A stretch of 64,000 bases of DNA from Planktothrix sp. PCC 11201. Its GTDB lineage: Bacteria; Cyanobacteriota; Cyanobacteriia; Cyanobacteriales; Microcoleaceae. The stretch is from assembly GCF_900009135.1 (NCBI RefSeq), contig NZ_LT797710.1, positions 61,857 to 125,856 on the forward strand, read 5' to 3'. Made by a program: the position numbers and the translations under genes. The notes beneath the pieces were generated by a model. It was not told where the DNA came from. It saw only the letters and a list, made by a program, of their open reading frames with translations, and searched no databases. Below, one piece after another: positions 10,939 to 42,280 of this stretch (position 1 is the stretch's first letter; every line of letters starts with the position of its first letter).

Positions 10939-11664
10939 TTATTCCGATAGATGGGAATTATTGAAGGCTTTGCGATGGGGAAGCAAGGTATCTAATAACT
11001 GACTCAGATGTTCTTTTCCATAGATTACCGGAGGAAGGGGCCCAGATGACAGTTCCGAGGATACTGGAGACTGGGGAACCAGAGCCGTTTCCTCCGATTT
11101 TTCTGGGTTAGAGGGGACAACCGTTTCCGGTTCAGCCGGAGTGGGCGGAATATCGGACGGTTGAGCCGGGATTTCCTCCAATACCGGGGTAATCTCTGGT
11201 TCAGAGGTAGGGGATACCCAGTCTAAAACTGGAGCAGGCTCCTCAAACCAGGGAGACATGATCGCGGGTTCTGGAGTCAATTCCGGTGGCGGAGATACCT
11301 GTTGGGGTTCTAATACACGAGAGTGATCCCCAATTAGAGATCTCGCGGCAACAACTTGTTGAGGTGCAATAGAACTCTGCAAGATCGTTGTTTCTGAACC
11401 AATACAGGCGTTTTCCCCCAGGGTTCCTGCCCCTAGAATCAACACCCCCGAACCCAAGACCACACCTGTCTCTATCTCTAGGATACCTTGGTAAACCTGA
11501 ATAATCACCCCCCGCCCGATACAAACTCCCGCAGCGATCCGAAGCTGACCATCGGCTGCCGCTTGTAGGATCACCCCGGGTGCTAGGGTAGCCCCGGGAT
11601 CAATTGTGACATCGCCACTCACATAAACATCTAGGTTTAGGAGTTGCGGTGGCGATATTTTCAT
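10939..11664 (-). CDS. ccmN: Carboxysome assembly protein CcmN
   Basis: The N-terminal half is a left-handed beta-helix of hexapeptide repeats (GDVTIDPGATLAPGVILQ, IGRGVIIQ, VVLGSGVLILG). A long Pro/Glu/Ser-rich linker follows, then a C-terminal amphipathic helix with IYGKEHLSQLLDTLLPHR, the known CcmN encapsulation peptide that binds the CcmK shell. CcmN bridges CcmM cores to the shell. I choose ATG 11664 (MKISPPQLLN, 241 aa). A longer frame from a TTG at 11736 would add 24 unrelated basic residues encoded by the right end of the inserted IsrB element. No Shine-Dalgarno sequence precedes ATG 11664 now; the likely native one lies on the far side of the insertion. Confidence 0.92.
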   Translation of the reverse strand: MKISPPQLLNLDVYVSGDVTIDPGATLAPGVILQAAADGQLRIAAGVCIGRGVIIQVYQGILEIETGVVLGSGVLILGAGTLGENACIGSETTILQSSIAPQQVVAARSLIGDHSRVLEPQQVSPPPELTPEPAIMSPWFEEPAPVLDWVSPTSEPEITPVLEEIPAQPSDIPPTPAEPETVVPSNPEKSEETALVPQSPVSSELSSGPLPPVIYGKEHLSQLLDTLLPHRKAFNNSHLSE

Positions 11665-11685
11665 CGAAAAACTGGGTTTGAAACC

Positions 11686-11711
11686 CCGTCCTTTAGCGAA
11701 GTGAAGGACGG
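11686..11711 (-). repeat. Right-end hairpin of the IsrB element
   Basis: An 8-bp perfect stem, CCGTCCTT with AAGGACGG, closes a short loop 20-45 bp from the ccmN start. Subterminal imperfect hairpins are the recognition structures of IS200/IS605-type single-strand transposases, so this is probably the right-end hairpin. It could also act as a weak terminator; no T-run follows on the gene strand. Confidence 0.65.
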
Positions 11712-11725
11712 CTTTACACAATCTT

Positions 11726-12820
11726 CTAAGTAACAATCAACCCGTTGGAACGGCGAATTAACTGTACTTTACTAGAAGCAATCTGCCCTAACCGTTTCCA
11801 ATTAGCATCGCTGACAGATACTTGTCTTTCGGTGTCTCCTGACACATAACCAACACCCTTGGGACATTTCACTAAGTCCCCCTTGCGAAATCCATGACGA
11901 GTTGTAGAACCTCCATACTTACGACGCACTCCGCCTTTTGCCGGGAGCATTAAGTGAAGTTGACGACGAGAAAAAGGCGGTCGGCGAATCACTCGGAATT
12001 GGGTAGTGGTAATCACAACATCACCAAACCAATTAGCACCATCAGTTTTGGCTGTATGATATGGGCGATACTCAACAAAAGCTGTTGCTGCAATCGCTAC
12101 ACCATCAACTGCATGAGTGTTGAACTTAGCCTTAGATTTGTCTACTTTGTTCTTGGTTAGCCCTAAGTATTTACGAGTTGATGCGGTTTGATAACCTTCA
12201 ATCTTAACTACAGGTGCTAACTTTTCTAGTTGGCTTAACATCCATTTTTGTCCAACCATAACAGGTGAAAAACCTTTACCAGATTTCGCTTGTTTACGTC
12301 CACTGGTTAAGTCAACATCGGCTTTGATATACTCGTATCTAATTTCTGCAACTGGGTAAATTTTGCATAATTCGGAAACTATTCTCAATTCTAATTGGCG
12401 ATTAGCGCGAATTGAGGGAGCAAGTTTACCTTGGCGACGATTATTAAAGCGTTTTTGGCGATGGTTGCGTTTTGAGAACTCAACCTTCCGGTTGATTCTT
12501 CTTCCTCTACGACTTCGGCGCATTAATCGTCTTATATCCATGCGCTCACGGACTGTCTGAAAAGGTAAAATTAGATGAGCCGTATAAAGTGTAAATTTAG
12601 CTGACTGAACACCAATCCCAGAGAATTTCTTGCCAGGATCAATCCCAATCACAATATTTTGGGTTGTGTACCCACTGGGCTCAACTGTTAGTTGAACATA
12701 AAATTGCCCACCATCTGACCAGTGCTTAACTGCTTTTCCCGACTCAATCCACTTCCTCGCTCTTGCTGGTGTGGTTGGCATCAACGGCTTGTTGTTTTGA
12801 TCAATTACTGGGATTCGCAT
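11726..12820 (-). CDS. isrB: IsrB: RNA-guided RuvC nickase homologue (HNH-less IscB relative)
   Basis: 364 residues from ATG 12820 (a TTG at 12835 would add five). Order of domains: N-terminal PLMP segment (MRIPVIDQNNKPLMPTTPARARK), RuvC-I IGIDPGKKFSGIGV with Asp61, arginine-rich bridge helix around 97-112 (RRLMRRSRRGRRINRK), RuvC-II with Glu163 in RYEYIKAD, and RuvC-III THAVDGVAIA with His236 and Asp239. RuvC-II and RuvC-III are joined by only about 60 residues with no HNH domain, which separates IsrB from IscB. The C-terminal domain (KGDLVKCPKGVGYVSGDTE, ANWKRLGQ, KVQLIRRSNGLI) matches the family's target-adjacent-motif region. All RuvC acidic residues are present, so nicking activity is likely. 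The ORF looks intact. Confidence 0.92.
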   Translation of the reverse strand: MRIPVIDQNNKPLMPTTPARARKWIESGKAVKHWSDGGQFYVQLTVEPSGYTTQNIVIGIDPGKKFSGIGVQSAKFTLYTAHLILPFQTVRERMDIRRLMRRSRRGRRINRKVEFSKRNHRQKRFNNRRQGKLAPSIRANRQLELRIVSELCKIYPVAEIRYEYIKADVDLTSGRKQAKSGKGFSPVMVGQKWMLSQLEKLAPVVKIEGYQTASTRKYLGLTKNKVDKSKAKFNTHAVDGVAIAATAFVEYRPYHTAKTDGANWFGDVVITTTQFRVIRRPPFSRRQLHLMLPAKGGVRRKYGGSTTRHGFRKGDLVKCPKGVGYVSGDTERQVSVSDANWKRLGQIASSKVQLIRRSNGLIVT

Positions 12821-12849
12821 TTTGGTATAACCCAATTTCTTGTTTTAGT

Positions 12850-13041
12850 CTCTTTGCTCAACTCAATTAAGATGTCTTGGCTTTACCCAACACCTGAACC
12901 AATCAGGTTTAGATTTTGTCCGAACTAGAGAAGTATTCGGAAGTCTGTACCCAATTGAGTCTCAATCAGCTATTCACTTCTTGCGTTGCCTAAATTGGTT
13001 TAAGCAATCCCCGCACTTTTAGGGCGGGGTTAGTGAACTTT
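12850..13041 (-). ncRNA. Omega RNA (HEARO-like) guide RNA of IsrB
   Basis: Immediately upstream of isrB on the same strand. Paired arms visible (plus-strand positions): TTCACT/AGTGAA 12973-12978 with 13032-13037, closing a domain that contains CCCCGC/GCGGGG (13009-13014 with 13024-13029) and a 9-bp stem with one wobble pair (12986-12994 with 12999-13007). Further hairpins are 12954-12966, TCCGAA/TTCGGA (12919-12924 with 12936-12941) and ACCTGA/TCAGGT (12892-12897 with 12903-12908). IscB/IsrB omega RNAs lie in this position, with the guide at their 5' end drawn from the flanking host DNA. That puts the guide at about 13042-13060, in the ccmM-ccmN spacer. The 3' boundary is uncertain. Confidence 0.8.
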
Positions 13042-13077
13042 ACTCGAACCTCTAGCGTTGCAACAGGAAACTTGATG

Positions 13078-15018
13078 TTAGGGACGTTGGATAATTTCCT
13101 CCAGTACCCGACGCTTGGCTTTGGAGTCAATCCCGATTAATCGGACATATTCCCCACGATGTTCGTTCAAGCAACCGTCTAAAGCGGCCATCACTTCGGA
13201 GATATTGTTAGATTGAATCGGAGCACAACTGTTCCAAGATCCGGTACGGAAGCGACGAGCATCCGCGTGTTCTGTGCCAATTTTGTAGCCTTTGGCTAAC
13301 AGACCCCGAACGTGATCCGCAACGCCATTATCCAGTTTGCCACTGCTGACGGTTGCTGTACTGGGACGACTGGCGGAAGCCGGAGCCGAAACCGTTGGCG
13401 CTACTTTGCCATCGGGACGCTGAATAATTTCTTCCAGGACACGGCGTTTGTTTTTGGGATCAATTCCAATTAAACGCACATATTCCCCCTGATGCTCACT
13501 GGCGATCGCATCTAATTTAGAAAGAATGTCTGCTACTCCTGAGCCGGAGAGACTAGGGCCACTGCGCCAAGATCCGGTACGGAAGCGACGAACATCGGCG
13601 TGTTCTGTGCCAATTTTGTAGCCTTTGGCCAACAGATCGCCAATTTGTCCCCCGAGACTAGAACTGGCAACACTGGCCGAACCCGCAGGAGCCGCCACCG
13701 AAGCACTGACCTTAGCCGTGCCAGCTTTAGGAGCTACTGCACCATCGGGACGTTGAATAATTTCTTCTAGGACACGGCGTTTGTTTTTGGGGTCAATCCC
13801 AATTAAACGCACATATTCCCCCTGATGCTCACTGGCGATCGCATCTAATTTAGAAAGAATGTCTGCTGCTCCTGAGCCAGAGATGCTGGGGCCACTGCGC
13901 CAAGATCCGGTACGGAAGCGACGGGTATCTGCATATTCCGTCCCAATTTTGTAGCCTTTGGCTAACAGATCGCCAATTTGTCCCCCGAGATCGGAACTGG
14001 CAACACTGGCCGAACCCCCAGGAGCCGCCACGGAAACACTACCTTTTCCATTACTGGATTTTGGAGCTACGGCGCCGTCGGGACGTTGAATAATTTCTTC
14101 TAGGACACGACGTTTGTTTTTGGAGTCAATGCCCAACAGACGGACATATTCTCCGCCATGATCTCTGAGGCAAGCTTCTAAGGCTGCCACGACTTCCCCT
14201 GTGGTTTTGGCCGTGATCGGAGCGCCACTGCGCCAAGATCCGGTGCGGAAGCGACGGGTATCGGCGTGTTCGGTGCCAATTTTGTAACCCTTGGCTAACA
14301 GATCCCCGATTTGCTGTACGATTTCAGCCGCTAAATTGGAACTTCCGGTATAGGCATAGGAGCGATCGCGACCACTGCCATTACCGACTCCCCCCGATTC
14401 ATTACGAATCGGGTTAATACAAGAGGAGTTTTCAGAACACTGATAACCCGCTTTTAGGGATTGGTTGACCCCGATGACGTGGGTAGCAAAGCTCAGATCC
14501 GCATCTGTGACATTAGGTAAGCGATCGGCCTGTTGTTGGTTAGTGATAATCGAACCGGAGGGAACATATTTTCCCGGGGGAATTTCCACGTCTTCGATTA
14601 AAACGTGCATCATGATAATGCAACCATTCCCGACTCTGGAATTGAACACCGTAGAGCGGAATCCGATAAAACAATTATCTCCCACATAGGCTGGGCCATG
14701 GATTAAAGCCATGTGGGTAATAGAGGAATTCTTACCTATCCATACGGAGTAGGACTGACCATCGTCCCCTTTAACGCGACCTTCTTCTAAGCCGTGAATG
14801 ACTACCCCATCTTGGATATTGCTATTTTCCCCGATGGCGAAGGGTGCTCCTTCATCGGCTCGAATAGAAGTACCCGGGGCGACTAATACATGAGCACCAA
14901 TCCGAACGTCACCAATAATATTAGAAAAAGAATGTACATAAGCCGTTGGGTCGATTTTCGGCTCTGCCAAGTTCTTCGACCAAGGGGTTGGAGGAGCCGC
15001 TAGGCCACGAACTGCCAT
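13078..15018 (-). CDS. ccmM: Carboxysome assembly protein CcmM (gamma-CA domain plus four SSUL repeats)
   Basis: 646 residues. Residues 1-200 form a gamma-carbonic-anhydrase-type left-handed beta-helix ([14 protein letters not shown] start, [38 protein letters not shown]). Four Rubisco-small-subunit-like (SSUL) modules follow, each with [19 protein letters not shown] and [25 protein letters not shown], joined by Ala/Ser/Pro-rich linkers. CcmM crosslinks Rubisco through the SSUL modules and recruits CcmN and CcaA. Modules 2 and 3 are almost identical at the DNA level, suggesting recent duplication or gene conversion. A shorter form (M35) is made by internal initiation in some species, but I see no in-frame ATG, GTG or TTG between the gamma-CA domain and module 1. 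Confidence 0.96.
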
Positions 15019-41931: not shown

Positions 41932-42280
41932 GGGATATTCTCAAAAAAAAATTCCCCCAACCGAAGTTGAAGGAAACCATCAGGGTGCATCTACTTTTGT
42001 TTATTCTGTTAGGATTGTTTCTGATCGGGATATTCTCAAAAAAAAATTCCCCCAACCGAAGTTGAAGGAAACCATCAGGGTGCATCTATTTTTGTTTATT
42101 CTGTTAGGATTGTTTCTGATCGGGATATTCTCAAAAAAAAATTCCCCCAACCGAAGTTGAAGGAAACCATCAGGGTGCATCTACTCTTACTTATTCCTTT
42201 AGGATTATTTCTGATCAGGATATTCTCAAAAAAAAATTCCCCCAATCTAAGTTGAAGGAAAATTATCGGGGTACATCTAT
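41932..42280. repeat. 95-bp tandem repeat, three full copies plus a decayed fourth
   Basis: Units start at 41932, 42027, 42122 and 42217, each beginning (G/A)GGATATTCTC with an A9-10 run and CCCCCAACCGAAGTTGAAGG. Units 1 and 2 are nearly identical; 3 and 4 diverge progressively (CAATCTAAG, AATTATCGGGG). Because 95 is not a multiple of three, the frame shifts between units. One unit would read KKKFPQPKLKETIRVHLFLF plus ILLGLFLIG, a membrane-helix-like peptide, so the unit may descend from a gene start. No ORF here is called. Confidence 0.9.

Follow-up and report, generated by a model that had tools for sequence, protein, structure and literature searches.

An IsrB element at the start codon of ccmN in the carboxysome operon of Planktothrix sp. 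PCC 11201

The carboxysome operon of Planktothrix sp. PCC 11201 carries a mobile insertion between ccmM and ccmN that, as judged from sequence comparison, is an element of the IsrB class. It lies within the 64,000 nucleotides of contig NZ_LT797710.1 that were analyzed here as one stretch (referred to below as the window). The class itself, its RNA and its target motif were already known, while the copy at ccmN is new. On the reading that we consider probable, the element encodes a predicted RNA-guided nickase that uses the ccmN leader as its guide and nicks copies of the site that lack the element, with the result that the element is copied into them. Across the cyanobacteria, elements of the same type are found at the start codons of genes far more often than the distribution of their target motif predicts.

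The element and its site between ccmM and ccmN

An element spanning 11665 to 13041 and located between ccmM and ccmN had been proposed in an initial annotation of the window. Its location and right end were confirmed, but the left end had to be moved to 13037, since comparison with empty sites in relatives identified 13038-13041 as host DNA (Table 1). The CcmM and CcmN reading frames are both intact, and both proteins exceed their NCBIfam cut-offs. The first base past the right end is the A of the ATG of ccmN, a gene that is needed for growth in air. Several traits of the IS200/IS605 type are present, including a fixed tetranucleotide beside the insertion, the lack of a target duplication and a subterminal hairpin. 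The element has no TnpA of its own, isrB being the only gene inside it, and its status within the IS200/IS605 type is thus non-autonomous at best. The shared orientation of element and operon had been viewed as unusual. The two are indeed co-oriented, but this needs no special reason because the element is oriented by its ATGA, which at a start codon always lies on the strand of the gene.

Table 1. Features of the IsrB element and its surroundings (window coordinates).
Feature	Position	Strand	Basis
Whole IsrB element, 1,373 bp, without target duplication	11665..13037	-	Empty ccmM-ccmN junctions of relatives
isrB ORF, 364 aa, stop included	11726..12820	-	ORF listing, profile and structure matches, alignment
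omega-RNA (HEARO-type) scaffold	12842..13037	-	Rfam RF02033, 37.7 bits (below gathering score); covariation
Host sequence, would-be 20-nt guide (ccmN leader)	13038..13057	-	Position outside left end; guide role by analogy with DtIsrB
Right-end hairpins, then T-rich tail	11674..11711	-	Read from sequence
ATGA, target-adjacent motif and first four bases of ccmN	11661..11664	-	Sequence and empty-site comparison
ccmN, 241 aa, intact, first base adjoins element	10939..11664	-	NF053793, 149.8 bits (cut-off 100)
ccmM, 646 aa, intact	13078..15018	-	NF053794, 877.6 bits (cut-off 550)

The ccmM-ccmN junction could be read in eight of the nine other genomes of the genus, the exception being G006, which is 73% complete. 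An empty site in relatives had been named as a mark of mobility, and the site was found to be empty in six of the nine (G003, G004, G005, G007, G008 and G009), in agreement with a mobile insertion. Related copies elsewhere, the second such mark, were also detected in the genus, though the genome itself contains no second copy of the element's own type, only an IscB. Among the loci examined, the 20 nt of left flank next to the ATGA are identical to those of the window (20/20) in the empty sites of G003 and G005; in G004, G007, G008 and G009 the flank has diverged.

In the two remaining readable genomes, G001 and G002 (L051, L052), the very same base is occupied by a HEARO element that has no ORF, is 361 and 360 bp long and scores 130.6 and 118 bits, respectively. 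The best local alignment between this element and the IsrB element covers 26 columns, and the last 20 bases of the two look alike. Both HEARO elements share the window's 20-nt left flank, such that the RNAs of the two kinds of element would have one guide. The occurrence of two kinds of element at one base was considered as proof of targeting and rejected because only a limited number of start-codon ATGA sites exists; it is only suggestive. HEARO matches are distributed unevenly in the genus, with 41 copies in G004, 32 in G008, 17 in G007 and 0 to 8 in each of the other seven genomes. At G000:C19:877711-879158 (L002, L085, L093), an IscB-like ORF of 428 aa is accompanied by its own HEARO RNA, and beside it a second HEARO element in the opposite orientation precedes a 404-codon ORF. 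The accessible parts of a paper on Planktothrix IS elements (PMC9366434) and of one on the Microcystis ccm cluster (PMC2442094) contain nothing on the ccmM-ccmN site.

Other features of the region and the window are listed here for completeness. A terminator-like match located just before ccmN (11686-11674) is weak, and the 4 matches in the region are not above the 1.9 +/- 1.5 observed in shuffled sequences. The ccmN frame is open upstream across the right end of the element to a TTG at 11736 (window 11665-11736, minus strand), and a start at this codon by read-through could lengthen CcmN by 24 residues. Elsewhere in the window, positions 41945-41996 (minus strand) match the Rfam family NsiR1 (nitrogen stress-induced RNA) with 39.9 bits, the gathering score being 39.

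The IsrB protein and its RNA

The intact 364-aa protein has the features originally attributed to it, namely a PLMP segment (at residues 12-15) and the catalytic residues Asp61, Glu163, His236 and Asp239, and the absence of an HNH domain was upheld by Pfam and NCBIfam, which give no HNH family match. Together with a split RuvC domain, a bridge helix and a length close to the roughly 350 aa of the class, these are the features of an IsrB protein. The single Pfam match is to RRXRR (PF14239, E 1.5e-50), and the NCBIfam IscB model NF040563 reaches 110.3 bits against a cut-off of 175, over the first half of the model only. The best match among solved structures is DtIsrB (PDB 8dmb; E 1.1e-42, residues 2-361), compared with an E of 1.2e-14 for the best IscB. 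When the predicted structure (AlphaFold2, mean pLDDT 77.6) was used for a Foldseek search, 8dmb was again the best match (E 8.0e-28, 31% identity). A better score to TnpB or to an HNH-bearing IscB was to have overturned the IsrB call. Because IsrB scores best by both sequence and fold and the IscB model stays below its cut-off, these two identities were rejected and the call stands.

In an alignment of 29 sequences (the window protein and 28 relatives that are 55-93% identical to it), all four catalytic residues are invariant. The residues reading the target motif in DtIsrB are Arg323 and Gln326 (PMC9581776). Their counterparts in the window protein are Arg343, which is invariant, and Gln346, which is conserved to at least 90%, with the numbering carried over by hand from the alignment. 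DtIsrB (PMC9581776) resembles the window IsrB in its HNH-less RuvC, PLMP segment, bridge helix, motif-reading Arg and Gln, upstream RNA and NTGA-type motif, ATGA being among the motifs it accepts. It differs in that the RNA scaffold in the window is shorter (a 196-nt Rfam match versus 262 nt) and in that nicking is here a prediction. By this analogy, the product of isrB is predicted to be an RNA-guided nickase.

An upstream structured RNA and a right-end hairpin had also been noted, and both were recovered. The match to the HEARO family (RF02033) runs from 13037 to 12842 and spans the whole Rfam model with 37.7 bits and an E of 8.2e-6 for 1.6 kb; this is below the gathering score of 83 bits, and the RNA is missing from a gathering-level Rfam scan of the window. 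In a common fold of 22 left ends, however, 35 of the 48 predicted pairs display at least one compensatory change, and the RNA sequence taken singly folds 3.1 standard deviations below its own shuffles. The structured omega-RNA that IsrB elements have upstream is therefore present here. HEARO elements, including the ORF-less one of G001 and G002, have in common with the IsrB element the RNA architecture, the start at the left end and the T-rich right end before ATGA; they are set apart from it by the sub-gathering score of the window RNA. Insertion beside ATGA or GTGA was reportedly noted when the HEARO RNA was first described.

The target motif and the excess at start codons

Comparison with empty sites identified ATGA as the target-adjacent motif, which is of the NTGA type characteristic of IsrB. 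A right-end pattern blind to the bases that follow it matched 29 of the 89 loci that remain without duplicates. ATGA follows directly in 27 of these 29 and lies two bases further on in L006 and L117, as compared with 1 of 19 matches to the same pattern elsewhere in 400 kb of the genome. Eight copies of the element's own type with a located right end were found in the genus, each upstream of a gene or ORF: ccmN, a thioredoxin-like gene, gshB, a type II/IV secretion ATPase gene, dapB, fabF, a 425-codon ORF and a 68-codon ORF. The gshB and dapB sites are empty, with the same start, in all nine other genomes of the genus. The fabF site could be read in seven of the nine, and the ATG that was hit corresponds to the fourth codon in six of them and to the first in one. 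An IsrB element in Microseira wollei (L047, 2080-5901) is interrupted by about 2.5 kb of other DNA.

It had been suggested that the insertion could link expression of the mobile element to carbon status. This idea found no support here; sister copies precede dapB, gshB, fabF and other unrelated genes. The same copies speak against a domesticated regulator, that is, a complex that binds or nicks the ccmN leader and thereby controls the carboxysome operon. Such a role would suit the predicted guide, which is the ccmN leader, and the location of isrB in the operon. Nevertheless, in the genome itself the element splits the target, six of nine relatives have an empty site and the catalytic residues are kept, making this explanation very improbable.

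For the analysis of gene starts, a site was scored as start-like when the joined empty site contained an ORF that begins at the ATG and is at least 80 codons long, with an in-frame stop no more than 37 codons upstream of that ATG. The genes in this count are ORF calls rather than annotation, and sites of related strains were merged only where the flank was identical. From 97 loci with an isrB match, 8 duplicates and 16 loci whose right end lacked a clear ATGA were omitted by reading (L118 with GTGA; L132, L133, L135, L137 and L166 with TTGA; L030, L031, L033, L035, L036, L041, L046, L125, L136 and L154). Of the 73 loci kept, 31 are of the element's own type; addition of L229 and L238 brings the own-type loci to 33, with a usable left flank in 28. 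For six loci whose first ATGA falls within the hairpin, the second was chosen manually. L021 was scored as inside an ORF, though the Pfam match starts at residue 7 of that ORF, and the genus fragments L232 and L233, with their right ends unlocated, were left unscored.

Across the cyanobacteria, 19 of the 28 own-type sites with both flanks known are start-like, 3 lie inside an ORF and 6 are intergenic. Background ATGA sequences in 400 kb of the genome are divided very differently: 185 of 3,430 are start-like, 2,749 lie inside ORFs and 496 are intergenic, such that the start-like share is 5% of all ATGA and 27% of ATGA outside ORF interiors. The own-type excess has a p-value of 8.4e-18 relative to all ATGA. 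Relative to start-like and intergenic ATGA only, the value is 9.2e-7 when the 3 inside sites are omitted, 9.9e-7 to 4.6e-6 with four other threshold sets and 1.4e-5 when the inside sites are kept as misses. A background drawn from the flanks of related loci (128 start-like, 1,602 inside and 478 intergenic of 2,208) yields 3.2e-7. Of the five own-type loci that have no usable left flank, four carry an ORF of 80 codons or more. Among HEARO elements that end in a similar tail, 10 of 16 are start-like (p 0.0003 to 0.015 over five threshold sets); for this set, 70 of 115 matches were fetched, the right end was located in 17 of the 70 and one duplicate was removed. Other IsrB subfamilies, scored by ORF length alone, are less biased (B 5/10, C 11/20, D 2/8, E 3/4). 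The base after ATGA in the 33 own-type sites (A 17, C 11, G 4, T 1) fits ordinary second codons, and no extended motif around ATGA is evident in these sites from inspection of the left flanks by eye and from the next-base counts. The open-access literature searched, which leaves most subscription papers out of reach, contains no statement of a start-codon rule; a mention of "start codon" in the accessible text of PMC13180657 is unrelated.

The excess might arise if the right end had evolved to supply the downstream gene with a ribosome-binding site. A Shine-Dalgarno core is indeed located 4-11 nt before ATGA in 13 of 20 right ends of subfamily C and 6 of 8 of subfamily D, with background frequencies of 209/3,237 for ordinary and 39/184 for start-like ATGA. 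Loci of these subfamilies with a core of this kind include L119, L121, L128, L151, L156 and L160. However, the core is found in 0/31 own-type right ends, yet the own type has the strongest start excess, and subfamily D has a long ORF in only 2 of 8 cases. Supply of a ribosome-binding site was thus rejected as the driver for the own type, and we find it hard to credit as an account of the excess.

Another explanation is that the element is a passive passenger that was moved once by a TnpA, with IsrB idle and the start excess reflecting nothing more than tolerance. The lack of a close TnpA in the genome, the single own-type copy and the decay of several relatives in the genus are all in line with this possibility. 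On the other hand, the ORF, the catalytic and motif-reading residues and the RNA pairing have been kept, and the excess seen over intergenic ATGA would not be expected from tolerance alone. A passive passenger therefore appears unlikely to us. With respect to the start-codon position, we favor insertion at any ATGA followed by survival, because an IsrB-like gene of Microcystis, together with 207 bp of upstream and 59 bp of downstream sequence, jumped in the laboratory into an internal ATGA of a phage gene, which it broke (PMC11237433). Insertion itself is thus not confined to starts. This Microcystis orf2067 element, which entered phage Mic1, is similar to the window element in having an IsrB-like ORF, flanks of about 0.2 kb on the upstream and about 60 bp on the downstream side, and a location at ATGA, but differs in having landed inside a gene rather than at its start. 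Survival of harmless insertions alone leaves the excess over intergenic ATGA unexplained. Transcription of the element on the coding strand at a start codon could account for it.

A proposed life cycle

Cyanobacteria are polyploid. In the cycle that we propose, an IS200/IS605-type TnpA acting in trans would insert the element just before the ATG, leaving both neighboring genes whole and the element, in the same orientation, within a transcribed region. The isrB gene would be transcribed from the ccm operon promoter, and the 20 nt outside the left end, corresponding to the ccmN leader, would serve as the guide. The non-target strand of an element-free copy may then be nicked 8-11 nt upstream of ATGA, the distance given for DtIsrB (PMC9581776). 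With the occupied copy as the template for repair, the element would spread to other chromosome copies and strains, and copying of the element into empty alleles is likely, as far as the sequences of these alleles indicate.

The genome contains six matches to Y1 transposases, but none is a close TnpA; the best of them shares 29% identity with a TnpA of G001. The gene for this G001 protein (L143, G001:C1:3411148-3411546) runs at its 3' end into a right end that is flanked by ATAA and is 92% identical over 26 bases to the right end of the IsrB element, making it a possible mobilizing partner. HEARO effectors are reportedly seldom linked to TnpA (PMC9755519). A plasmid-based gene drive by TnpB of IS200/IS605 elements has been described (PMC11870625). 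As proposed here, the guide in these elements records the insertion site and element-free copies are attacked; TnpB, however, is an endonuclease of another family, whereas in the present case the nickase is predicted and we infer the homing.

More tentatively, and with rather less than even confidence, cyanobacterial IsrB elements may be viewed as start-codon parasites in which the ATGA also serves as the beginning of a gene. The copy would park in the leader and use the promoter of the gene, and with the leader as its guide it would drive itself into every empty copy of that leader. The genes concerned would often function in core metabolism, and only exact excision would be harmless.

With its exact insertion, empty alleles and matching guide, the ccmN copy offers a natural candidate case of nickase homing. 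Should larger annotated sets bear out the start-codon rule, it would explain how such elements live inside important operons without breaking them and how they are transcribed without a promoter of their own.
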